DNA of 64,000 nt from Ulvibacterium marinum (GTDB lineage Bacteria > Bacteroidota > Bacteroidia > Flavobacteriales > Flavobacteriaceae). The DNA lies in NCBI RefSeq assembly GCF_003626755.1, contig NZ_RBCJ01000002.1, positions 310,001 to 374,000 on the forward strand, written 5' to 3'. Positions 22,739 to 58,460 of this stretch are shown in pieces; the first letter of the stretch is position 1; every line of letters begins with the position of its first letter. The position numbers and the translations under genes were made by a program. The notes under the pieces were generated by a model. The model was given only the letters and a program-made list of their open reading frames with translations. It made no database searches and was not told the origin of the DNA.

Positions 22739-23911
22739 ATGAAAATGGATCGAATTTTTGAGAATACTGCAACCGCCTTTGCTCTGAAGACGGACTCGGA
22801 ACTGGAGCGAGCCTATTTCCTATTTAAGCTGATCGCCAATGAACCACTGGTGAAAATGGGGACAGCGGTCACCAACTTTGCGATAAAGGCGCACTTACCT
22901 GTGGAAGGATTGATTCGTGCCACGGTCTTTGACCATTTTTGCGGAGGGATAAGTGAAGAGGATTGTATGCCCATAGTGGATAAAATGTGGGAAAAGGGTG
23001 TCTGTTCCGTTTTGGATTACTCTGTTGAAGGCAAAGATGAGGAAGACCCCCTGGATAATGCTTTGGCAAAGGTTTTGAAAGTCTTGGATTTTGTAAAGGA
23101 AAAGGACGCTATTCCTTTTGCGGTTTTTAAACCAACAGGGTTTGGACGTTTTGCACTTTTTCAAAAGATGAGTGAGGGAAAATCCCTTACCAAAACTGAA
23201 AAAGAGGAATGGGAGAGGGTAGTAGGTAGGTATGAGACCGTTTGCAAAAAAGCCCATGACCTTGAAGTTTCCCTTTTAATAGATGCCGAAGAAAGTTGGA
23301 TGCAAGATGCTGCGGATAGTCTTGCCGAGGATATGATGCGAAGGTTCAACAAGGAAAAACCTTTTATCTTCAATACGTTACAGATGTATCGTTGGGATCG
23401 GATGGACTATTTAAAAGAACTACAGAAAAGAGCGGAAAAAGATAACTTCAAGATTGGTGTAAAGGTAGTACGCGGGGCTTATATGGAAAAAGAGAATGAA
23501 CGCGCCGAAAATTTGGGGTATCCCAGTCCCATTTGTGCTTCAAAGAAAGAAACCGATTTAAATTTTGATATTGCGGTCAGCTATATGATGGAACATTTAG
23601 ATACTATCTCCATATTTGCCGGCACCCATAATGAAGAAAGTAATTATAAATTATTGGAATTGATCCAAAAGAAGGGTGTCGCCAATTCCGATACTCGAAT
23701 TTGGTTTGGGCAGTTGTTCGGGATGAGTGACCATATTACTTTTAATTTAGGCAATAGCGGCTATAATGTCGCCAAGTATTTACCTTTTGGTCCGGTAAGG
23801 GACGTAATGCCCTATTTAATACGCAGGGCGGAAGAAAATACCTCGGTAATAGGACAGACCAATAGGGAATTGGAATTGTTAAAGAAAGAACGGAAACGCC
23901 GAAAGATCTAG
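22739..23911 (+). CDS. putA: Proline dehydrogenase
   Basis: About 390 residues of the monofunctional FAD-dependent family. The start is the ATG at 22739 (or the ATG two codons later); the TTG at 22730 is too close to the -7 element. Hallmarks are VKVVRGAYMEKE (near residue 245), FAGTHNE, and YLPFGPVRDVMPYLIRRAEEN at the C-terminus with the two arginines that bind proline carboxylate. It oxidises proline to pyrroline-5-carboxylate and passes electrons to the quinone pool. The P5C dehydrogenase domain of bifunctional PutA is absent; the symbol is used in the monofunctional sense. Its stop overlaps the stop of the convergent DUF4258 gene by four bases. Confidence 0.93.
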   Translation: MKMDRIFENTATAFALKTDSELERAYFLFKLIANEPLVKMGTAVTNFAIKAHLPVEGLIRATVFDHFCGGISEEDCMPIVDKMWEKGVCSVLDYSVEGKDEEDPLDNALAKVLKVLDFVKEKDAIPFAVFKPTGFGRFALFQKMSEGKSLTKTEKEEWERVVGRYETVCKKAHDLEVSLLIDAEESWMQDAADSLAEDMMRRFNKEKPFIFNTLQMYRWDRMDYLKELQKRAEKDNFKIGVKVVRGAYMEKENERAENLGYPSPICASKKETDLNFDIAVSYMMEHLDTISIFAGTHNEESNYKLLELIQKKGVANSDTRIWFGQLFGMSDHITFNLGNSGYNVAKYLPFGPVRDVMPYLIRRAEENTSVIGQTNRELELLKKERKRRKI

Positions 23912-46605: not shown

Positions 46606-47183
46606 AAATTGTAATTATTAATTACGGAGCGGGAAATATTCAGAGTATCCGTTTTGCCATTCAAAGATTGGGATACGAAGCGATTCTTAGTAATGATCCC
46701 AAGGATATCCAAGCTGCGGACAAGGTAATATTTCCGGGTGTAGGTGAAGCCAGCAGCGCCATGAAAAAATTACGGGCTAGCGGATTGGACAATCTAATAC
46801 CAAACCTAAAACAACCTGTATTGGGCATTTGCCTGGGCATGCAGTTGATGTGCAATTCTTCCGAGGAAGGGAGTACCGAGGGGCTTGGAATATTTGATGT
46901 GGATGTGGTTCGGTTTTCCAATCGAGTTAAAGTACCTCAAATAGGATGGAATGAAATATCCAATTTAAAATCAGATTTGTTTAAGGGTATAGGAGAGAAG
47001 GAATACATCTATTTGGTACATAGTTATTATGCCCCAATTTGCAATGATACCATTGCGGTTTCGGAATATGAGTTGAATTATAGTGCCGCTTTAGGTAGGG
47101 CTAATTTTTATGGTACGCAATTCCATCCCGAAAAAAGTAGTGATGGTGGGGAAAGGATATTGCAAAATTTTCTTGAAATGTAA
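46602..47183 (+). CDS. hisH: Imidazole glycerol phosphate synthase, glutamine amidotransferase subunit
   Basis: 193 residues of the class I glutamine amidotransferase fold. The nucleophile Cys lies in [11 protein letters not shown] (about residue 78) and the His-Glu pair in [13 protein letters not shown] near the C-terminus. It feeds ammonia to HisF. Overlaps hisB by 4 bases and the GNAT gene by one base, so the genes are translationally linked. Confidence 0.96.
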
Positions 47184-47599
47184 TGGAAGGAGAATTTTAC
47201 ATAGCTACGGAAAGAGAAAAAATGGATACACCATTTATCCATAAATATTTATCCGAGAATTCCTATTGGGCAAAGGGCAGAACCATGGAATTGGTTTTAA
47301 AATCAATGGAAAACTCCCTATGTTTTGGGGTTTTTAATAAGAATGATCAACAAGTGGCCTTTGCACGCTTGGTAACTGACTATGTGGTTTTTGCTTGGTT
47401 AATGGATGTTTTTGTCGATTCTGAATATGCGAGCCAAGGAATAGGTAAAATGTTGGTCAGGCATATTGTCCAACTCCCCGAATTACGGAATGTCAACGGA
47501 ATCGGGCTTCGTACAAACGATGCCCATGGATTTTATGAAAAATTTGGTTTTGAAAAAATATCGGAACCACAAACTTGGATGCTAAGAAAGAATAAATGA
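47183..47599 (+). CDS. GNAT family N-acetyltransferase
   Basis: 138 residues. The acetyl-CoA binding motif A is visible as [19 protein letters not shown] (Q/R-x-x-G-x-G/A). The N-terminal half has [19 protein letters not shown]. It is placed exactly between hisH and hisA, overlapping hisH by one base and hisA by four, and so is part of the operon. It is not one of the ten classical his activities. The target may be a small molecule or a protein N-terminus; unknown. Confidence 0.88.
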
Positions 47600-48372
47600 G
47601 AATTATCCCGGCCATAGATATTATTGAGGGGAAATGTGTTCGACTATCAAAAGGCGATTACAACACCAAAAAGATTTACAATGAAAACCCTCTTGAGGTT
47701 GCTAAGGAATTTGAAGCCCATGGCATTCAATATTTACATTTAGTAGACTTGGATGGAGCAAAATCCAAACATATTATTAATCATAAGGTTTTATATCAAA
47801 TCGCATCAAAGACGAATTTGGAAATAGATTTTGGGGGAGGATTAAAAACGGATGAGGATTTAAAGATAGCCTTTGACAATGGTGCTAAACAGGTTACTGG
47901 GGGCAGTATCGCCGTAAAGGAGCAATCTACTTTTTTGGATTGGTTGGAAAAGTATGGGGCTGAAAAAATTATTTTGGGAGCGGATGCCCAAAATGAAAAA
48001 ATAGCAGTTTCCGGTTGGCAGGAGGAATCCAACATGGACTTGGTACCTTTCATTAAATCCTATCAACAAAAGGGAATTAAATATGTAATCTGTACCGATA
48101 TTGGTAAGGATGGCATGTTGGAAGGACCTTCATTCGATTTGTACAAAAAAATTCTATCTCATACCAAACAAACGGAGACAAGGGTTACCATGAGCGGGGT
48201 TGAAGATATTGAAGTGCCCGGGATACATCTTATTGCATCTGGTGGTGTCTCCCAGTTTGAGGAACTACCGAAACTTAGGGAAATAGGTTGTGAAGGCGTC
48301 ATAATCGGTAAGGCCCTTTACGAAAATAGAATTAGTCTTAAGCAATTGGAATCTTTTAACATACAGGTATGA
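47596..48372 (+). CDS. hisA: ProFAR isomerase (HisA) with a small insertion
   Basis: 258 residues of a TIM barrel. [17 protein letters not shown] carries the first catalytic Asp, [14 protein letters not shown] the second. Compared with the about 245 residues usual for HisA there is an extra segment of roughly 18 residues ([18 protein letters not shown]) between LYKKILSH and [11 protein letters not shown], before the phosphate-binding strand. It isomerises ProFAR to PRFAR. Overlaps the GNAT gene by four bases and the DUF1572 gene by four bases. Confidence 0.93.
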
Positions 48373-48890
48373 AGGATATGGTATCTCAATTAGCGGAAGA
48401 GTTTTTGGCGCAATCCATATATAGAATGGATGAAAGCACTAGAATGATTCAAATTTGTATGGAACAGTTGTCCGAAGAAGAAATTTGGATCAGACACAAT
48501 GAATCTTCCAATAGTATTGGTAATCAGATTTTGCATTTATGCGGAAATATAACCCAGTATGCCATATCGGCCCTGGGCCAAGAAACAGATTCCAGGGAAC
48601 GTGACAAAGAATTTGCAGCACGTTCCGGTTATTCCAAATCTCAATTGGTACGGATGCTTGAGGATACTGTGGAAAAGGCAAAAAGAACTATGGATGGCTC
48701 CAAAGTGGAAAATCTGATGCGAAAGCGTAACGTTCAGGGTTTTTACTTTTCGGGAATGGGCATCATTATCCATGTGGTCGAGCATTACTCGTATCATGTG
48801 GGCCAAATTGCACAGTGGACCAAAATGCTGAAAAATAAAGAATTAGGCTTTTATGATGGAATAGATTTGAATACAAGGAACAAGGAATAA
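48369..48890 (+). CDS. DUF1572 / DinB-superfamily protein
   Basis: 173 residues, a predicted four-helix bundle of the DinB/YfiT superfamily. Ligand-like histidines are in [34 protein letters not shown] (two or three His). It overlaps hisA by four bases and so is translated with the his genes. A role in histidine metabolism is not established; proteins of this superfamily are often thiol-dependent S-transferases or metal-dependent hydrolases. Confidence 0.85.
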
Positions 48891-48897
48891 TCTAGGG

Positions 48898-49368
48898 AGG
48901 TCAGAGATAGGAGTTACGAAGTACAAAGTAGGAAATTGAAGTTTATCAATCTAATTATAGAATACAAAGATGCAAGATTTAAAGTCAAGGACTAAAAGAT
49001 TCGCTGCAGATTGCTGGAGGCTTTGTACTAAAATTCCTAGATCCAAGGAATATGATACCTGGGTGAGACAACTAATTAGATGTTCCGGTTCAGTAGGGGC
49101 AAATTATAGAGCATCGCAAAGAGCAAAATCAACTGCGGATTTTATTTATAAACTCAAAGTAGTTGAAGAAGAAACTGATGAATCGATGTATTGGCTAGAA
49201 CTTTTTCTGGAAATTTCGGATAATCATCATGAAGAAATAGAGCGTTTAAGAAAAGAAGGAGGTGAGTTATTGGCAATTACAGTTTCTTCCATAAAGACCG
49301 CTCGAAAAAATCAGAAATAAAAAATGATTTTATGAAAGACATTACTTCGTATTTTACTCCTCTGACCT
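48898..49368. mobile_element. Candidate small insertion cassette with 26-bp inverted ends around a four-helix-bundle gene
   Basis: The ends 48898-48923 and 49343-49368 are inverted copies: AGGTCAGAG, 8 bases, TACGAAGTA on the left, and the same two 9-mers with the same 8-base spacer, inverted, on the right. That is 18 fixed matches at identical spacing. The 471-bp unit contains one gene and lies in the hisA-DUF1572 to hisF interval of an otherwise tight operon. No transposase is encoded, and no clear target duplication is seen. Confidence 0.55.
48970..49320 (+). CDS. Four-helix-bundle protein (23S rRNA intervening-sequence family)
   Basis: 116 residues. It has the typical start DLKSRTKRFAADCWRLCTKI, then QLIRCSGSVGANYRASQRA, ADFIYKLKVVEEETDESMYW and LEISD, which define the family of small helical bundles first found in 23S rRNA intervening sequences and related to bAvd of diversity-generating retroelements. 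No reverse transcriptase is nearby. It lies inside the inverted-repeat unit 48898-49368. Lys/Arg-rich surfaces suggest nucleic-acid binding; the true role is unknown. Confidence 0.9.
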   Translation: MQDLKSRTKRFAADCWRLCTKIPRSKEYDTWVRQLIRCSGSVGANYRASQRAKSTADFIYKLKVVEEETDESMYWLELFLEISDNHHEEIERLRKEGGELLAITVSSIKTARKNQK

Positions 49369-50836: not shown

Positions 50837-51559
50837 TCAGTCGGTTTTAACTATTTCCGATGCACCGGACAACCTTCTAAGATTTACGGTCGCATCTCCC
50901 CTGTATCTTAAAGTACTTGCGCCGGAAGCCTCAATATCAATGGATTCCGTTACCGTTAAATAGGCATCACTGGCACCGCTTAGATCTATATCCAATTCTT
51001 CTACCGTCAAATCATAATCCTTAAGATCACTACTGCCCGAAAGACGGGCCCTTAGCGATTCGGTATTTCCAAATAAATCAATATTGGAAGCACCTGATGC
51101 CTCTATATCCAAATCGGTGAGATCCATCTCACCTGAGAAGGATGATGCCCCTGAGACCTCTAGATCTACCTTACGCGTAATCAAAGGATTTTCCAATGTG
51201 ATATTGGAAGCACCTGAAATATCAAAATCGGAAATCTCCCTAGTGGTAATAAACACGTTTAAAGTTACATTTCCTCTTAGATTGGTATGTTTCTTTAATC
51301 TCACTCGCAGCGTGTTCCCTTCCTTTTGTACAACAATACGGTCATGAATGTTTTCATTGGCCTCTACCTCTACGCTTTCCTCCACATCGGAGAAAGTCAC
51401 ATAAACATTAAAAGCATTGGACACCTTTAAACGTGAATAGTCTGAAAAACCATAACCTATCGTTGAAATTCCATCGGAAGCGCGAATAGTTTCATAATCA
51501 CAGGAAACCATTTGAAGACTTAAAGCGATCAGAATCGCAAATACTAATACTCTGTTCAT
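50837..51559 (-). CDS. Head-GIN/DUF2807 lipoprotein
   Basis: 240 residues. A signal with lipobox (LQMVSCDYE) puts the Cys at about residue 20. The rest is a repeated beta structure with the motif SGAS recurring seven or so times (DISGASNI, EVSGASSF, EASGASNI, LSGASDA, EASGASTL, LSGASEI), the hallmark of a right-handed beta helix of the DUF2807 family. Probably attached to a membrane and exposed to the periplasm or surface. Last of three genes behind the sigma-type promoter at 52471-52496. Function unknown; relatives accompany envelope-stress genes. Confidence 0.9.
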   Translation of the reverse strand: MNRVLVFAILIALSLQMVSCDYETIRASDGISTIGYGFSDYSRLKVSNAFNVYVTFSDVEESVEVEANENIHDRIVVQKEGNTLRVRLKKHTNLRGNVTLNVFITTREISDFDISGASNITLENPLITRKVDLEVSGASSFSGEMDLTDLDIEASGASNIDLFGNTESLRARLSGSSDLKDYDLTVEELDIDLSGASDAYLTVTESIDIEASGASTLRYRGDATVNLRRLSGASEIVKTD

Positions 51560-51561
51560 TT

Positions 51562-51783
51562 TTATAAATTTTCTGATTGATTTTCAAGGTTGTTTTTTAA
51601 CTCCATGACCGGCATCCATTGAAAATTTACCGGAAACCATTGATCTTTGGTTTTTAAGGTAATGGATGATGATGCGGTATTCCCCTTCTTTAGATATACT
51701 TGGTTATTTTCCGAAAAAACATGTTGGGTTTCAATTACCTCATGACATACTGGACAAAGACCGTTAAACATATTATTTTTCAT
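51562..51783 (-). CDS. 73-residue protein with CPVC motif
   Basis: From the ATG at 51783; a longer frame overlaps the upstream barrel gene and is rejected. The product begins MKNNMFNGLCPVCHEVIETQ; CPVC plus H is one half of a possible zinc site, with no second CxxC present. The rest is polar, with SSSITLKTKDQWFPVNFQW. No signal peptide is seen. It lies between the barrel gene and the GIN gene with gaps of one and two bases, so it is a genuine operon member. No family recognised. Confidence 0.65.
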   Translation of the reverse strand: MKNNMFNGLCPVCHEVIETQHVFSENNQVYLKKGNTASSSITLKTKDQWFPVNFQWMPVMELKNNLENQSENL

Positions 51784-51784
51784 A

Positions 51785-52438
51785 CTAAATTTTCTTTTTA
51801 TAGCGATTCCTGCCCATATTAAAAACACCTATTTTAACTCCTATTCCCGCGGAAAAACCATTGATTCGGGATACCGGACTAAAATCAAGTTCTATTTTAT
51901 TGGAAAAGCGGTATTTGACCCCAGCTTCAAGCTGTAAATACCTTGAGACATTGAACAACACACTTACCCCTGGTTCCAATACAAAAATGGCATCTACATC
52001 ATCCTCTGTAAGCTCATAATCCTCGTCATCAAAATTATCGCCAACGTAACCGACGGCACCGGCACCAATCAATAAAGGAAATGAAAGGTTTACCAAAGAT
52101 TTACTAAAAAAAATAGGTTCCAAGTGCAGGCCGCCGTAAGCTCCAATAAGATCCTCATCACGGGCCAGATCACTATTAAAAAGATCTTGTTGCGAATAGA
52201 AGAAGGTCCCCGAGAAACCTACCTCAAATTGTTGGTTGGCCACATAAGCAATTTTGAGACCACCTTGATATGTTGGCTCTCCGTCAATTTCGCCTAAATG
52301 AGTGTTCAAACCCAAATAAACGCCATGAACAACATTCTTACGGTCATTAAATTCAAGGTAATCTTCGTCTTCCTGGGCATAGGTAAAGCCTGCAAAAAGT
52401 AAAATAATGATTAGAAAAAAAGATTTTTGATGTTTCAT
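51785..52438 (-). CDS. Outer-membrane beta-barrel protein
   Basis: 217 residues. Signal peptide ending GFTYAQ, then alternating strands typical of an 8- to 10-stranded porin-like barrel (VYLGLNTHLGEIDGEP, YGGLHLEPIFFSKSLVNL, RYLQLEAGVKYRFSNK) and an end at about FGVNPGVKIGVFNM. The mature N-terminus is acidic (EDEDYLEFNDRK). It starts the operon that follows the ECF-like promoter. Function is unknown; a small outer-membrane barrel in an envelope-response regulon is the inference. Confidence 0.82.
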   Translation of the reverse strand: MKHQKSFFLIIILLFAGFTYAQEDEDYLEFNDRKNVVHGVYLGLNTHLGEIDGEPTYQGGLKIAYVANQQFEVGFSGTFFYSQQDLFNSDLARDEDLIGAYGGLHLEPIFFSKSLVNLSFPLLIGAGAVGYVGDNFDDEDYELTEDDVDAIFVLEPGVSVLFNVSRYLQLEAGVKYRFSNKIELDFSPVSRINGFSAGIGVKIGVFNMGRNRYKKKI

Positions 52439-52470: not shown

Positions 52471-52496
52471 GACAATGTAGTTGGGAAAAGGTTGCA
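52471..52496 (-). promoter_or_regulatory. ECF-type promoter of the barrel/GIN operon
   Basis: On the minus strand TGCAACC (52496-52490), a 16-base spacer, then GTC (52473-52471, in GTCTTTT). The start of the barrel gene is 33 bases downstream. It shares sequence and spacing with the elements at 54798-54823 and 55137-55162. Confidence 0.7.
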
Positions 52497-52586
52497 TATT
52501 TTCTATACTTTTTTACGAAAATTTTTGCAGATCGGCTATACAGTCTTTTCAAGGTTAGTTCCAAACATATAGAAAATGTTACAGGG

Positions 52587-53678
52587 TTATAATTCCTTTA
52601 AAAGTATAACTCCCTTTATGCCCGTAATGGAAATCTCTCCTGATAAACCCTTACCGTAGGTAGCCGTTATTTCGCGAATCCTTTGTCCCTTGTTCAACAT
52701 CTTGGTCTCTACGTTCTTAAAGGACTTAGGCAGTCGTAACAGACCTTCTTCCAAAGTAGCGTCGAACTTAAATGAGAAATCGGAAATGGTAAGGCTTACT
52801 TCTGATGATTCCTGATCTATTACGATTACCGCATCCGGATTCTGCACCTTGGAAACCCTGAAATCAGCAATTTTCATGGTAAGATTGATCTGTTCATCCA
52901 CATTGTTGAGTTGCATATTGGTAAATCTTAAATCTCCGTGTACGGCACCTACTTCTTCTATCGTTATTTCATCCTTACTGGAGTAAATCTCCAAGGATGA
53001 CACACGTTCTATTTCTATATCGGTACCACTACTATTGATGCGTAAGTTTCTGGATTCCTCTACATCCAAACTTCCATTTTTTATACGGATATTCCCATAG
53101 TTAACGGTTTTGGTTCTCAATTTTCCATATTTTAAAACAACATCCGCATTGTTAATGTCCTTATTGATCCAAACATCGCCGTGTTCTACATTTGCCTTCA
53201 ACTTCCCGGACCAATCACCGATAATTACATCGCCAAATTTGTTGGTAATATCCAGTTCTGCATTTGATGGTAGTAGAATCGTGTAGTCTATTTGAACATT
53301 GCTTCTATCAAAATCAAAAGGATTTGCCTTATTGAAATACTTGGCAAAAAAGCCTGTACTTTTTTCTGCTATTTCCGAGGTGACGGTAATAAAATTTTCA
53401 ATTTCCCTTGTGTTGAGCGAAATACGGTCCAGAAGGTTTTTTGCATTTTCCTTTTTTCTGTGTGTGACCGTGATGTCAACGGTAATCGAAACATTGTCCC
53501 TGTCCCATCCGGTAACGGTTACATCGCCATATTTGTTCTCCAAATACAACTCTCCGGAATTGGTCATTTCGTAGGATTCGCTAAGCTGCTTCGATACTTT
53601 TTCTTGGGCCAATACATAATGGCCGCATATCATCAAGACCATTAAAACAACCCGTCTTTTATAAAATGTATCCATCAT
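52587..53678 (-). CDS. DUF4097/GIN-type secreted protein
   Basis: 363 residues. It has a signal peptide (about residues 1-24, ending YVLAQ) and a beta-rich body of repeats such as LYLENKYGDVTVTGWDRDNV, ITNKFGDVIIGDWSGKL, VEHGDVWINKDI, again a beta-helix-like fold. It overlaps the upstream anti-sigma gene by 20 bases, so it is translated in the same operon (the start could also be the second ATG). Probably located in the periplasm or surface. Function unknown; family members track envelope-stress systems. Confidence 0.85.
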   Translation of the reverse strand: MMDTFYKRRVVLMVLMICGHYVLAQEKVSKQLSESYEMTNSGELYLENKYGDVTVTGWDRDNVSITVDITVTHRKKENAKNLLDRISLNTREIENFITVTSEIAEKSTGFFAKYFNKANPFDFDRSNVQIDYTILLPSNAELDITNKFGDVIIGDWSGKLKANVEHGDVWINKDINNADVVLKYGKLRTKTVNYGNIRIKNGSLDVEESRNLRINSSGTDIEIERVSSLEIYSSKDEITIEEVGAVHGDLRFTNMQLNNVDEQINLTMKIADFRVSKVQNPDAVIVIDQESSEVSLTISDFSFKFDATLEEGLLRLPKSFKNVETKMLNKGQRIREITATYGKGLSGEISITGIKGVILLKEL

Positions 53679-54204
53679 AATCTTCGTTTGTTATTTTAGA
53701 ATCATTGATTTGATGCAATAGATTCTCAATAAGTTCAATTCTCTTTTTGTAGTTGGCAATAATAGCTTCCAGAACAAGCTCGTTGTCCAGATTTTTTTCC
53801 ATTTCCAATTTTAGAAGTTCATATTCCTTGTCCAACTCATCCATAAACAATAGAAACTCCTCTTTATCCGCATCGGATAGTTTGGGATGGTCTTTTACAA
53901 GCTGTACCTGATATGAGACCAAACTCTTGTAATGCATATCAATATCCAATAGTTCCTGGGAAATAACAGTGTTTTGTGTATTGTCACCTTTATTCATCAG
54001 GGAAACACCAATGATAGCGGCAATCCCAAATACCAAAACAAAACTGGCCGCGACACGTAGTATCGGAGATCGCCATAAGGGCACAACTTTTGGCTTTGGC
54101 CCCTCCAACTCCGAGGCAATATTGGCCCAAAGTTTTGCCTTATCCGCTTTATGTTCATCGAACAACGCCTTATTTTCCCGAATGTGCTTTTCAAAATTGT
54201 CCAT
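53659..54204 (-). CDS. Probable anti-sigma factor
   Basis: 181 residues. The first 35 residues are cytoplasmic and charged (HIRENKALFDEHKADKAKLW), one transmembrane helix lies at about 46-66 (ILRVAASFVLVFGIAAII), and the remainder is a helical periplasmic domain (DKEEFLLFMDELDKEYELL). This is the architecture of single-pass anti-sigma factors. It overlaps the sigma gene by one base, and the pairing supports the call. No zinc-binding anti-sigma motif is present, so this is a context-driven assignment. Confidence 0.72.
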   Translation of the reverse strand: MDNFEKHIRENKALFDEHKADKAKLWANIASELEGPKPKVVPLWRSPILRVAASFVLVFGIAAIIGVSLMNKGDNTQNTVISQELLDIDMHYKSLVSYQVQLVKDHPKLSDADKEEFLLFMDELDKEYELLKLEMEKNLDNELVLEAIIANYKKRIELIENLLHQINDSKITNEDYDGYIL

Positions 54205-54743
54205 TATAAGGTGTTTATGATTTCAACTAGTTTTTTCTTTGCCCTATGGTATTGTGATTTTGAAGTAGATGTTGAAATGTCCAATATTTCTCCTATCTCC
54301 AAATGATCGTAACCTTCAATGAGGTAAAGACTTATAATTTGTTTATATCCGGCCGGAAGTTTTTCCAAGCCTATTTTTACTTTTTTAATATCGATCGCTT
54401 CAACTTTTTCTTCTACATCTTCCTTTAAATAAAACTCATGGTCCTCAAGAGGGGTAATGGGAATTTTTTTTAGCTTTAGATGGTTTATACTTTTGTTTAC
54501 CACGATTCTTTTTAACCAAGACCCGAACGTACTTTCATATTTGAAGCTTCCAAGATTTTTAAAAGCATCTACAAAGCTTTCCTGTACAATATCCTCGGCA
54601 TCCTCCTTTATTCCCAACATACGTATGCCTATATTGTACATGGCATCCACATAGAGCTCGTATAGGCGGTACTGCGAGTTTCTATCACCAGACTTGCTAC
54701 GTTCAACAAGCTCCTTATGTGTAAAGCGAATATTGGTTTCCAA
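54204..54743 (-). CDS. ECF RNA polymerase sigma factor
   Basis: 179 residues. Sigma region 2 is YRLYELYVDAMYNIGIRM plus EDAEDIVQESFVDAFKNL, and region 4 is LPAGYKQIISLYLIEGYDHLEIGEIL then TSKSQYHRAKKKL. There is no ATG at the N-terminus; the only start is the TTG at 54743, just after an in-frame stop. Its own promoter carries TGCAACC-N16-GTC, and the same element occurs before two nearby operons, suggesting that it directs transcription of all three, including its own. The anti-sigma-like gene follows directly. Confidence 0.92.
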   Translation of the reverse strand: METNIRFTHKELVERSKSGDRNSQYRLYELYVDAMYNIGIRMLGIKEDAEDIVQESFVDAFKNLGSFKYESTFGSWLKRIVVNKSINHLKLKKIPITPLEDHEFYLKEDVEEKVEAIDIKKVKIGLEKLPAGYKQIISLYLIEGYDHLEIGEILDISTSTSKSQYHRAKKKLVEIINTL

Positions 54744-54797
54744 TTAAATTGAAATGGTTGTTTAACTCCTTAAAATTAGGCCTACTACATTGCTAAA

Positions 54798-54823
54798 GAC
54801 AAATGGGAATCTCAAGGGTTGCA
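54798..54823 (-). promoter_or_regulatory. ECF-type promoter of the sigma factor operon
   Basis: On the minus strand TGCAACC (54823-54817), 16 bases, GTC (54800-54798, in GTCTTTA). It lies 55 bases upstream of the TTG start of the sigma factor gene, as needed for autoregulation. Confidence 0.7.
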
Positions 54824-55136
54824 TCGATTAGAATAATTTTACCAAATGTAAAGCATTTCTGGAATGCGACTTAGTTTCTAAGTTGGGTCAATAGCTAAAG
54901 ACCGTAAGGACCCAAACTCATGTTGATGTCTCGCTTATTTTAACAGCTATCTACTATCCTGCTGAAGGAAGTTCTTTCTTTAATGGAGATTTTATCCAAT
55001 TTAAAAATCGACACTTGGCCGCATGATGTCTAATGTAAGTAATTGAAAACCATAATTATATAAAATTAGTGGGATATAGAGGGTACCTTAAAAATTTGTT
55101 AAATATTCCTAAGAATGCTAAACTTTCAAACCTATA

Positions 55137-55162
55137 TGCAACCCTTTATTTTTTAAACTGTC
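55137..55162 (+). promoter_or_regulatory. ECF-type promoter of the TonB receptor / DUF4249 operon
   Basis: TGCAACC (55137-55143), 16 bases, then GTC (55160-55162, in GTCAATA). The receptor start is 42 bases downstream. Same element and spacing as the two minus-strand sites at 52471-52496 and 54798-54823. Confidence 0.65.
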
Positions 55163-55203
55163 AATAGAGCGTATAAAATTTAAAACCCAAAAAACATTTG
55201 AAT

Positions 55204-57618
55204 ATGCTCATCAATTCAAAATCAAGAAATCACCCCAAAAAAAGTATCAAAACTGCCCTCACCTTCCTGGGCATACTTATGATCAATGCCTTTGTTTTAG
55301 GTCAGGACAGCTATACCATAAATGGGAAAATCACCGATAAGGATAACGGGGAAACCTTATTCGGCGCCTCCGTATTTTTAAAGAACACAAACATAGGGGT
55401 GGTCACCAATGAATATGGTTTTTACTCCATTACAGCCCCAAAAGGGAGTTATGTTTTAGTTATATCCTACATGGGGTATTTGGACATTAATCAAGAAATA
55501 CAATTGGACAAAGACCAAAAATTAGATTTCGAAGTTGAGGAATATACGACCCGTTTGGACGAGATTGTGGTCACCGCGGAGGAATCGGAGCGTATAAGCC
55601 TCAAAAAGCCTGAAATGAGCATTGCCAAACTCAATATTAAAACCGTGAAGCAAATGCCCGTGGTGTTGGGGGAAGTGGATATCATAAAATCAATTCAATT
55701 GTTGCCAGGTGTCACTAACAATGGGGAAGGATCCAGCGGATTTAATGTAAGAGGTGGAGCCGTTGACCAAAATCTAGTGTTGTTGGATGAAGCCATTATT
55801 TATAATACATCCCACTTATTGGGCTTCTTTTCCGTCTTCAATGCAGATGCCATAAAGGACATGAAGTTATATAAGGGAGGGATTCCCGCGCGTTTTGGAG
55901 GAAGGGCTTCATCTGTACTGGATATTCGACAAAAGGACGGGAACAGCAAAAACTTTTCCCTTACCGGAGGTATAGGGGTAATTTCAAGCAGACTTGCGGC
56001 GGAAGGTCCTATGTTCAAGGATAAAGGTTCTTTTCTGGTTGCCGGCAGAGGTTCCTATGCACATCTTTTATTAAAGGCTTCCGGTGAAGAGAACAGCGCT
56101 TATTTTTATGATTTGAACCTTAAGACCAATTATAACCTGAACGAGAACAATAGACTCTTTCTTTCCGGGTACTTTGGGAGGGATGCTTTCGATTTTGGGG
56201 ATAGTTTCGATAGTAGCTATGGAAATTTATCGGGAAATTTACGTTGGAATCATATTTTTAATGACCGTCTCTTTTCCAACCTCTCCCTTATCTATAGCAA
56301 ATACGATTATGACCTTGGAATAAAAATAGAGGAGTTTGAATGGATTTCCTCCATCAATAACTACAACCTAAAGTATGACCTTGCTTATTACGTAAACGAC
56401 AGGTTTAAATTGGACTTTGGGGCAAGTGGAATATATTATGATTTTGATCCAGGTCAAGTACGGCCCACTTCGGAAACATCGGCTATAAACCCCTTATCAT
56501 TAGACCGGAAAAAAGCCCTTGAAAGTGCAGCATACATAGATGCCGAACACAAGCTTACGGATAAGTTGACCGCACAATACGGATTGCGCTACAGTATCTT
56601 CAATCGTTTGGGCGGGCAGGCCATGGTAGATTATGCCAACGATCAGCCTGTAGTGTATAACAGCACCTTGGGCATTTACCAGCGAGGTACCGAAATCGGT
56701 GAAACGGACTTTGAAAAAGGCGAGACCATAAAAAGTTATGGCAATTTGGAGCCCCGAGTGTCCCTCGCATACCAATTAAACGATGTTTCTTCCGTAAAAG
56801 CTGGATATTCCAGGGTTGCCCAATACATCCATTTGCTATCCAATACTACTTCCGTAACCCCATTGGACGTTTGGACGCCAAGTGGACAATTCATCGAACC
56901 TCAATTGTCCGATCAATATGCTTTGGGTTACTTTAGAAATTTCATGGACAAGACCTATTCTTTGGAAGTGGAGGCTTACTACAAAACAATTTCCAATCGG
57001 ATCGATTATATAGATGGCTCCGATCTTATTGGAAACAATACGATCGAGACCGAGATCCTTAATGGGGAATCACGCGCCTATGGTCTAGAATTTTTGGTAC
57101 GAAAGACCGAAGGTAGGCTGACCGGGTGGCTTGCGTACACCTTATCAAAATCGGAACAAAGGACCCCGGGAGGTAATGCAGGAGGTCCAGGAATAAATGA
57201 TGGTAAATGGTACAACACCCCTTTTGACCGTACGCATGACCTTTCCCTTACCGGTGCTTATCAATTGAACGATAAGTGGAGTTTTGGCACTAATCTGGTC
57301 TTCCAGACCGGAAGACCCGTAACCTATCCCAATGGTCAGTATGAGTATGAGGGTCTGTCTATTGCCAGTTACTCGGATAGGAATTCGGATAGATTGCCTG
57401 CATACCATAGACTGGATGTTTCTGCTACCTATGTTCCCAACAGAAAACCCAATAAACGATGGAAAGGCGAATGGGTATTTAGTATCTATAACTTATACAA
57501 TCGTAAAAATGCCGCCGCAATTTCTTTTGGGCAAAATATAGAGACCGGGGCCAACCAAGCCACCCGAGTAGCAATTTTTGGAATGGTACCCTCCGTAACC
57601 TATAACTTTAAATTTTAA
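55204..57618 (+). CDS. TonB-dependent receptor with carboxypeptidase-like prefix (SusC-like)
   Basis: About 804 residues from the ATG at 55204; the TTG at 55198 is discounted. After a signal region ending AFVLGQ comes a CarboxypepD_reg domain (INGKITDKDNGETLFGASVF), then a plug (MPVVLGEVDIIKSIQLLPGV, GFNVRGGAVDQNLVLLDEA) and a TonB-dependent barrel that ends SVTYNFKF. It is followed after five bases by a DUF4249 gene, a pairing typical of Bacteroidota. The substrate is unknown; the pair may import or sense an envelope-related or organic compound. Confidence 0.93.
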   Translation: MLINSKSRNHPKKSIKTALTFLGILMINAFVLGQDSYTINGKITDKDNGETLFGASVFLKNTNIGVVTNEYGFYSITAPKGSYVLVISYMGYLDINQEIQLDKDQKLDFEVEEYTTRLDEIVVTAEESERISLKKPEMSIAKLNIKTVKQMPVVLGEVDIIKSIQLLPGVTNNGEGSSGFNVRGGAVDQNLVLLDEAIIYNTSHLLGFFSVFNADAIKDMKLYKGGIPARFGGRASSVLDIRQKDGNSKNFSLTGGIGVISSRLAAEGPMFKDKGSFLVAGRGSYAHLLLKASGEENSAYFYDLNLKTNYNLNENNRLFLSGYFGRDAFDFGDSFDSSYGNLSGNLRWNHIFNDRLFSNLSLIYSKYDYDLGIKIEEFEWISSINNYNLKYDLAYYVNDRFKLDFGASGIYYDFDPGQVRPTSETSAINPLSLDRKKALESAAYIDAEHKLTDKLTAQYGLRYSIFNRLGGQAMVDYANDQPVVYNSTLGIYQRGTEIGETDFEKGETIKSYGNLEPRVSLAYQLNDVSSVKAGYSRVAQYIHLLSNTTSVTPLDVWTPSGQFIEPQLSDQYALGYFRNFMDKTYSLEVEAYYKTISNRIDYIDGSDLIGNNTIETEILNGESRAYGLEFLVRKTEGRLTGWLAYTLSKSEQRTPGGNAGGPGINDGKWYNTPFDRTHDLSLTGAYQLNDKWSFGTNLVFQTGRPVTYPNGQYEYEGLSIASYSDRNSDRLPAYHRLDVSATYVPNRKPNKRWKGEWVFSIYNLYNRKNAAAISFGQNIETGANQATRVAIFGMVPSVTYNFKF

Positions 57619-57623
57619 TTAAA

Positions 57624-58460
57624 ATGAAGACTCTTTTTAAAACCGCAATACTGTTTTTGACCTTAAGCTTTATATCCTGTGAAGATGTAATCGATGTGGA
57701 CGTACAAACCGCTCCTTCCAGATTGACCGTTGAGGCCTCTTTGGACTGGGAAAAAGGAACCACCGGAAACGAACAGACCATTAAGTTGAGCATGTCCACT
57801 CCTTTTTTTGATACCACTACAAATACTGCCGTAACAGGGGCTTCGGTAAAAGTCACCAATGATTCCAATGGAACCGAGTTTGTCTTTACGGATCAAGGCA
57901 ATGGGGAGTATAGCACGAGTTCCTTTGTTCCCGTAATCGATCAGTCCTATACTCTGGAAATACAACATGATGGGGAAACCTATAGCGCCACCGAGACCAT
58001 GATGTCAGTAACGGACATCACCGAAATCAACCAATCCCGCGAGGATGGTTTTGACGATGAGGCACTGGAGGTCAATATTTTCTTTACGGATCCCGAGGAA
58101 GAGGACAACTATTATCTCTTTAGGTTTCAGGAACAAGGGGATTTGCTACCGGATTTTGAGGATTTGGATGATGAATTTGTAAACGGAAACGAAATCCCTT
58201 GGTATTATGAAAAAGACGATGACGACGATACTGAGGAGTTTGTTCCTGGTGATGTAATTGATATTGCCCTTTACGGAATTTCAGAGGATTACTATAACTA
58301 TATCCGCATTCTTATCGAACAGTCGGGAGGTGTTGATCTTTTCGGTACAATTCCTGTCGCTCTCAAGGGAAATTGTATAAATCCGACCAATCCGGATAAT
58401 TACGCACATGGCTATTTTCGGTTGACACAGGTGGTAAGGGCCAGTTATGAGTTTGAATAA
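57624..58460 (+). CDS. DUF4249 domain lipoprotein
   Basis: 278 residues. A lipoprotein signal has its Cys at about residue 19 (SFISCEDVIDVDV). The N-terminal domain looks like an immunoglobulin-type sandwich (TVEASLDWEKGTTG, TAVTGASVKVTND), as in DUF4249. The middle is acidic (EKDDDDDTEEFVPGDVID). It is translated five bases after the TonB receptor and is its probable surface or periplasmic partner, in the way SusD-type partners accompany SusC. Function otherwise unknown. Confidence 0.88.
   Translation: MKTLFKTAILFLTLSFISCEDVIDVDVQTAPSRLTVEASLDWEKGTTGNEQTIKLSMSTPFFDTTTNTAVTGASVKVTNDSNGTEFVFTDQGNGEYSTSSFVPVIDQSYTLEIQHDGETYSATETMMSVTDITEINQSREDGFDDEALEVNIFFTDPEEEDNYYLFRFQEQGDLLPDFEDLDDEFVNGNEIPWYYEKDDDDDTEEFVPGDVIDIALYGISEDYYNYIRILIEQSGGVDLFGTIPVALKGNCINPTNPDNYAHGYFRLTQVVRASYEFE

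Follow-up and report, generated by a model that had tools for sequence, protein, structure and literature searches.

Extracytoplasmic function (ECF) sigma factors such as E. coli RpoE, P. aeruginosa AlgU and B. subtilis SigW contain regions 2 and 4 only, use promoters with an AAC core at -35, are encoded upstream of a membrane anti-sigma factor (RseA for RpoE, MucA for AlgU) and are positively autoregulated. In the available text of PMC8103513, classical ECF promoters combine this AAC core with a CGT box at -10. Among the Bacteroidota, the Dma/Das pair of Bacteroides (ECF21) is an envelope ECF system that involves an outer-membrane barrel, and in the family Flavobacteriaceae the SM6 promoters of Flavobacterium psychrophilum form an ECF-type class with one sigma/anti-sigma pair among the SM6 genes, as far as the accessible part of PMC9723704 describes them. 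Here we analysed a 64,000-nucleotide stretch of Ulvibacterium marinum, another member of the Flavobacteriaceae (assembly GCF_003626755.1, contig NZ_RBCJ01000002.1, positions 310,001 to 374,000 of the forward strand; hereafter the window), in which the element TGCAACC-N16-GTC stands before three units at an ECF sigma gene. We conclude, with a probability of about 0.92, that the adjacent ECF sigma factor uses the element as its -35/-10 promoter and that the element defines a small, autoregulated regulon of envelope proteins. This conclusion is drawn because the element is conserved in orthologous loci, ranks highest when the window is scored with a matrix, follows its target genes and co-occurs with the anti-sigma factor.

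The element was picked out by a sequence-only reading of the window, which claimed three copies of identical spacing and stated that the other TGCAACC copies it found lack a GTC at that distance. Both claims were borne out, the first with the coordinates and strands as given and the second with positions that agree within 1 base. TGCAACC-N(14-18)-GTC has exactly three matches in the window, each with a spacer of 16, against a chance expectation of 0.32, and none of 100 dinucleotide shuffles of the window gave three copies. At spacers of 8-15 and 17-24, no pairing of TGCAACC with GTC was found in the window. The count of half-sites is uninformative because the window shows no enrichment of TGCAACC by itself (8 copies against 6.96 expected), and the remaining copies, at 22768, 30112, 49729, 61046 and 61063, have no GTC at the N16 distance.

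The putative promoter P1 (54798..54823, minus strand) precedes the sigma gene and shows TGCAACC-N16-GTC with the extended -10 region TTGTCTTTA. P2 (52471..52496, minus strand) precedes a predicted operon of barrel, zinc-ribbon and GIN genes, and P3 (55137..55162, plus strand) precedes the TonB receptor/DUF4249 operon. All three sites are intergenic, overlapping none of the seven open reading frames (ORFs) of the locus that were checked nor any listed ORF of at least 80 residues. A matrix trained on orthologous sigma promoters, from which the window had been excluded, placed P3 (34.1), P1 (33.1) and P2 (22.9) at the top of the window, where the next score was 7.1. An Rfam scan of the window at gathering scores matched no RNA element.

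Conservation of the sigma promoter was examined in the best 80 of 294 orthologous matches, which have 69-96% identity. [TA]GCAAC[CT]-N16-GTC, with a T preceding GTC, was present upstream of sigma in all 80 loci. The distance from the first base of the site to the beginning of the sigma match is 55-88 bp, with a single exception at 255 bp, and the spacer always has 16 bases in a scan that permitted 13-21. For a profile, 55 non-redundant sites were aligned (window included, near-duplicates dropped), with GCAAC and TGTC required for picking. These distinct sites give ATGCAACYNTTNNNWTTTTNNNTTGTCWWTA, preceded by an AT-rich tract 10-15 bases upstream. T8 and T28 (0 being the first T of TGCAACC) are invariant in the 55 sites though they were not required, and many spacer positions vary. 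The candidate promoter has conserved positions beyond the motif first read: a T right after TGCAAC[CT]N, a T tract in the spacer, the T before GTC, W-W-T-A after GTC and the upstream AT-rich tract. Its AAC core at -35 is shared with the RpoE, AlgU and SigW systems, whereas its -10 core, TTGTC, differs from the CGT of canonical pairs. It also differs from the SM6 class, for which the available part of PMC9723704 gives a CGT box and targets in type IX secretion; here the -10 region is TTGTCWWTA, and the predicted targets are receptors, a barrel and Toastrack-type proteins.

The matrix was also run over the 80 loci (1.275 Mb), where it found 183 sites at scores of at least 14, comprising the 80 training sigma sites and 103 others, and none in reversed sequence. 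At scores of at least 12 it found 184 sites, compared with 1 in the reversed control. By downstream gene these divide into sigma (80), barrel (65), TonB receptor (28) and other ORFs (11), and most start 33-83 bp ahead of the start codon. The internal barrel site was found in 65 of the 79 loci with a barrel homologue. A TonB homologue occurs in 57 loci, and 32 of these TonB genes have their own site, in seven cases at 2.6-6.1 kb from sigma; the remaining 25 follow the barrel gene, with every ORF listed in between co-oriented, and have no site of their own. Conservation in orthologous spacers, which the sequence-only reading had named as a check, is therefore found before the sigma, barrel and TonB genes. 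TonB/DUF4249 units located elsewhere in their genomes carry the site in five cases (G019, G020, G021, G125 and G162), as do the units beside sigma in G089 and G158; the G125 and G158 units were judged from the DUF4249 ORF alone. The predicted promoter follows its targets, in that the TonB/DUF4249 unit keeps a site when moved and lacks a separate one within a barrel run. The 11 sites before other ORFs comprise 4 pre-TonB sites of Arenibacter, 2 before serine-hydrolase-like genes and 5 before small genes of secreted or lipoprotein-like type, the last two kinds being named from their sequences only. The serine-hydrolase-like gene (of beta-lactamase type) stands behind the promoter in two Aquimarina loci, L037 (+7004) and L067 (+6756, both from the sigma start), and also at L169:1538.

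Since an ECF sigma factor, an anti-sigma factor and a TonB receptor are encoded together, as in FecI/FecR/FecA, and the receptor adjoins the pair and has the same promoter, the locus might instead be a cell-surface signalling switch with the receptor as its sensor. The receptor (55198..57618, plus strand) begins with a CarbopepD_reg_2 domain, and CarboxypepD_reg, plug and barrel models match it; among the domain models, however, there was no match for an STN domain. A Pfam search with the anti-sigma factor likewise gave no match, FecR included. Moreover, no receptor was found in the fetched stretch of 23 of the 80 loci, and in five genomes the receptor is elsewhere in the genome. The sigma gene here has an ECF promoter of its own, unlike fecI; FecI-like factors figure among the exceptions to ECF autoregulation in the available text of PMC8103513. 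A Fec-type switch is very unlikely on this evidence, and we retain the autoregulated envelope regulon.

The strict form of the motif, TGCAACYNT-N13-TGTCWWT, occurs three times in the 5.9-Mb genome of U. marinum, always within the window, and the reversed-pattern control gave no match; the genome-wide enrichment suggested by the sequence-only reading was found in this form. With one mismatch allowed, there were 6 matches compared with 2 in the control. One of these (G000:C8:277869, score 23.4) is intergenic and starts 78 bp ahead of another TonB receptor gene outside the window; this second receptor is probably a further member of the regulon in this genome. Orthologues of this receptor have the site in G002 (27.5) and G020 (30.5), and in G160 the receptor lies instead downstream of a barrel gene. 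The site is missing before the receptor of G043 (61%), a genome without a strong anti-sigma orthologue, and before another copy in G020 (60%), which has the sigma system. The proposed regulon of sigma, anti-sigma, two GIN/DUF4097 proteins, barrel, TonB receptor and DUF4249 is supported by these results and refined by the addition of the second receptor and of a zinc-ribbon ORF in the barrel operon, and by the limited occurrence of the GIN protein (36 of 80 loci). Other candidates were set aside. The loose form TGCAACC-N14-18-GTC had 27 matches in the genome compared with 17 in the reversed control and was replaced by the stricter form. Among four matches outside the window in this genome, L004 (score 16.8), L018 and L108 overlap ORFs and were dropped as members, and the fourth, L019, is intergenic and was kept. 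A one-mismatch site at an ORF edge, C8:1070676 (L197), was not kept, as neither a target nor conservation was established for it.

We also surveyed 149 genomes of the family. The strict motif has 55 copies in 29 of them, and the reversed control has 4 copies in 4. A search with the anti-sigma factor gave 19 strong matches (at least 123 bits, the next being 45). The strict motif is present in every one of the 19 genomes that gave these strong anti-sigma matches, compared with 10 of the 130 others (Fisher p 4e-17, uncorrected for relatedness). This association bears on another explanation, in which the motif would be the operator of a separate transcription factor, either an activator or a repressor. 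The length and strong conservation of the motif would suit an operator, and its TTGTC core differs from the CGT box given for classical ECF promoters in the available text of PMC8103513. However, it is directional, its spacer is fixed at 16, its -35 core is the AAC of the same source, it mostly lies at the short distance from start codons given above and it tracks the sigma/anti-sigma pair across genomes. We regard an operator as extremely improbable and favour a promoter read by the adjacent sigma factor.

Several observations weigh against that reading. The barrel site P2 is weaker than the other two, and a single score of its size arose in 1 of 150 first-order Markov windows. The internal barrel site is missing in 14 of the 79 loci with a barrel homologue. 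In 4 Arenibacter loci, which are counted among the 32 with a site before the TonB gene, the site lies ~520-680 bp before that gene, and short ORFs of doubtful reality stand between the two. An earlier form, TGCAACY-N15-TGTC, was found in 28 of 40 relatives and was also frequent in the reversed control, and it was replaced. The 10 genomes that contain the strict motif and have no strong anti-sigma orthologue compare with 3 that have a control match; among three of the 10 that were inspected, L184 has the motif before a divergent sigma/anti-sigma homologue, and L183 and L187 show no gene of the system. Finally, two paralogous loci, L222 and L226, have TGTAACA-N16-GTC followed by TTT at 67 and 73 bp upstream of sigma.

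The last observation suggests that paralogues may read a similar promoter, and with it that the element may be read by a number of the cell's ECF sigma factors, so that the regulon would not be private to one of them. Immediately downstream of the second TonB receptor is another cluster of ECF sigma, presumed anti-sigma and DUF4097 genes (L188), and the ECF regulons of F. psychrophilum have been suggested to overlap partially in the accessible part of PMC9723704. However, TGCAAC[CT]-N16-GTC itself was absent from the stretch of 260 bp scanned ahead of sigma in all 20 paralogous ECF loci (34-41% sigma identity), of which L222 and L226 are the two with the similar form; the closer sigma homologue L184 (46%) has the full motif. 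Moreover, the second receptor of G020 carries the site although no sigma gene adjoins it, and the G160 receptor is found in a barrel run. The same two cases weigh down the second ECF sigma factor as the true reader of the second-receptor site. We consider a shared readership unlikely and keep the adjacent sigma factor as the presumed reader.

In the second cluster (L188:1948-7750, G000:C8), the second TonB receptor has behind it a further ECF sigma gene, a protein with HEAT repeats in the place of an anti-sigma factor and two DUF4097 proteins, an arrangement that is a possible link between two ECF systems. Ahead of the second sigma gene, at L188:4302-4534 and in the equivalent gap of L189, a conserved block starts with TGTAACC and is perhaps a related but different ECF promoter.

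The sigma factor has 179 residues and a TTG start (54204..54743, minus strand). It contains regions 2 and 4 only (Sigma70_r2, 3.4e-12; Sigma70_r4_2, 7.9e-13), as do RpoE, AlgU and SigW. Directly downstream, a 181-residue ORF (53659..54204, minus strand) meets the sigma ORF at 54204 and has a match in all 80 loci. From its position and layout we infer that it encodes the anti-sigma factor of the adjacent sigma factor, which would complete the likeness to the three canonical systems, with positive autoregulation here suggested by the promoter sequence; in contrast to the canonical pairs, this anti-sigma factor belongs to no Pfam family. Its structural model (mean predicted local distance difference test (pLDDT) score 60.9) shows N-terminal helices, a hydrophobic helix at 47-67, a three-helix domain at 75-172 and a loose tail ending in YIL. 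The one hydrophobic helix of this low-confidence model might be a membrane span, as would be expected of an RseA-type anti-sigma factor with a periplasmic domain. A CpxP/CnrX-like sensor was considered and found no support: the best Foldseek E-value from this low-confidence model was 1.3 and the best in a profile search of solved structures was 0.63. The Dma/ECF21 anti-sigma factor joins a tether and a barrel in one protein, as described in the accessible parts of PMC13088901, with a similar pair in PMC9308784. Here, in contrast, the 181-residue helical model has no C-terminal barrel, and the barrel is a separate gene.

That gene encodes a predicted outer-membrane beta-barrel protein of 217 residues (51785..52438, minus strand) with a sub-threshold OMP_b-brl match (E 0.21). 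It is followed by a small zinc-ribbon ORF (51562..51828, minus strand; PF23545, 26.1 bits with a cut-off of 27; match in 61 of 80 loci) and by the head GIN (DUF2807) protein (50837..51559, minus strand; PF10988, 2e-42). Downstream of the receptor in its operon is the DUF4249 protein (57624..58460, plus strand; PF14054, 5.2e-27). Elsewhere in the window, at 47183-49320, ORFs named from reading as acetyltransferase-like, DinB-like and four-helix-bundle-like lie amid histidine-biosynthesis genes.

Behind the anti-sigma gene lies the gene of a secreted-looking protein of 363 residues (52587..53678, minus strand), which is found in all 80 loci. Its model (pLDDT 88.5) is beta-rich and beta-helix-like. 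A Foldseek search matched 16 solved chains at E-values of at most 0.001, mostly putative Toastrack-type adhesins, with low template-modelling (TM) scores (0.19-0.48 among those shown). The E-values were 1.5e-7 for 4qrk, 3.7e-6 for 3pet and 1.3e-4 for 4opw, and the Legionella secretion-system subunit 7muc also matched. The protein has no Pfam match and no solved relative by sequence, and its assignment as a Toastrack-like (DUF4097-type) protein is by fold alone. Toastrack proteins (DUF4097/DUF2807/DUF2154) are partners of the PSP and Lia envelope-stress systems, and the locus resembles these in having Toastrack-type proteins beside the sigma factor. The association of Toastrack with sigma factors is not new, since the available text of PMC11237479 mentions contexts in which a sigma factor is linked operonically. 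The same text predicts the Toastrack domain to be intracellular, whereas the DUF2807 and DUF4097-type proteins here have signal-peptide-like N-termini, suggesting that they are exported.

Taken together, the autoregulated envelope regulon would operate as follows. In the resting cell, the sigma factor would be held by the membrane-anchored anti-sigma factor. An envelope signal would lead to cleavage of the anti-sigma factor and release of the sigma factor, which would direct RNA polymerase to TGCAAC[CT]-N16-GTC promoters. Its own operon, with the genes of the sigma factor, the anti-sigma factor and the Toastrack-like protein, would be transcribed first, giving positive feedback with a built-in shut-off. 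The barrel/zinc-ribbon/GIN unit, the TonB receptor/DUF4249 unit and the second TonB receptor outside the window would follow, and this small regulon may renew or remodel outer-membrane and surface proteins. The sequences themselves establish the promoter-like element with its spacing and conservation, its co-occurrence with the system and the genes behind it. The scheme further presumes that the adjacent sigma factor reads the motif and that its neighbour inhibits it, as well as the signal, the proteolytic step and the role in cell physiology.

The C-terminal tail of the anti-sigma factor is itself conserved. Its 3' end, which encodes Y-x-L-COOH, overlaps the start of the next gene in a different reading frame (53659..53678, minus strand). 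We compared 89 anti-sigma homologues, 80 from the sigma loci and 9 others, which comprise 69 different stretches of the last 25 residues. L is the final residue in 88, and Y stands two positions before the end in 86; Y-x-L ends 86 sequences and Y-[T/I]-L 84, and the exceptions are AFIL, ELIL and YEII. The overlap between the tail codons and an open frame of the following gene spans 14-44 nucleotides in the 89 sequences; the first open ATG was used as its start, and the larger values may be too long. In view of this overlap, the Y-x-L end could be a by-product of the next gene's start that has no function as a tail. However, nearly all codon changes at Y and L are synonymous for the anti-sigma factor and residue-changing in the other frame. 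The tail codons vary as GGA/GGC/GGT, TAC/TAT, ACN, ATT/ATC/ATA and TTA/TTG/CTC/CTA, and the same variation alters residues of the other frame (T/I, L/F/P/R/H and Y/C/S). Residue and codon entropies are 0.28 and 1.24 for Y and 0.09 and 1.15 for L, compared with 1.24 and 1.40 and with 1.06 and 1.06 for the codons of the next gene that overlap them. The Y-x-L tail therefore looks to be under selection in the anti-sigma factor's own frame, and a by-product is unlikely.

The pattern Phi-x-phi-COOH is that of a PDZ ligand. It is possible, though we propose it only tentatively, that a protease-docking signal is built into the anti-sigma factor itself: the Y-[T/I]-L-COOH end, located in the periplasm and resembling the aromatic-hydrophobic ends of misassembled outer-membrane proteins (OMPs), would be gripped by a PDZ protease and the inhibitor destroyed in cis. 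Both the docking and the periplasmic location of the tail are presumed here. In the available text of PMC8545111, peptides ending in YYF and WVF served to activate the PDZ proteases DegS and AlgW, and the activating peptide in the MucA and RseA assays came from MucE or had an OMP-type end, whereas the PDZ-ligand-like end here is on the anti-sigma factor itself. The genome of U. marinum has 7 PDZ_2 matches and 1 match for an M50 site-2 protease, which are compatible with such docking but unspecific, since both families were found in 14 of 14 control genomes.

Tails were also read in the 20 paralogous loci, of which 3 gave no match, 5 gave the sigma gene or another stretch instead and 12 were readable, some from weak matches. 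The final residue is I or V in 11 of the 12 readable tails and S in the remaining one (L220). These paralogous anti-sigma factors (L213-L229) have a different Toastrack-like partner, with tails such as ETTI, ETTV, ESTII and ENNII, and their end overlaps the next ORF in 10 of 12. The I or V ends suggest a tail code that may separate parallel ECF systems in one cell.

The listings of a literature search, whose coverage left out most subscription papers, contained no paper on this regulon. The Flavobacteriaceae are called understudied in the accessible part of PMC9723704, where the contribution of the seven ECF factors of F. psychrophilum to its one ECF-type promoter class is left open. The regulon is new in detail and ordinary in kind; any surprise would come from the apparently selected tail of the anti-sigma factor. 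The analysis provides a transferable and precise promoter matrix for an ECF group that many marine flavobacteria possess, and it names likely targets, among them DUF4249, a domain that one paper in the literature searched mentions. If the tail is a protease-docking signal, it would also give a simple prediction of how parallel ECF systems stay apart.

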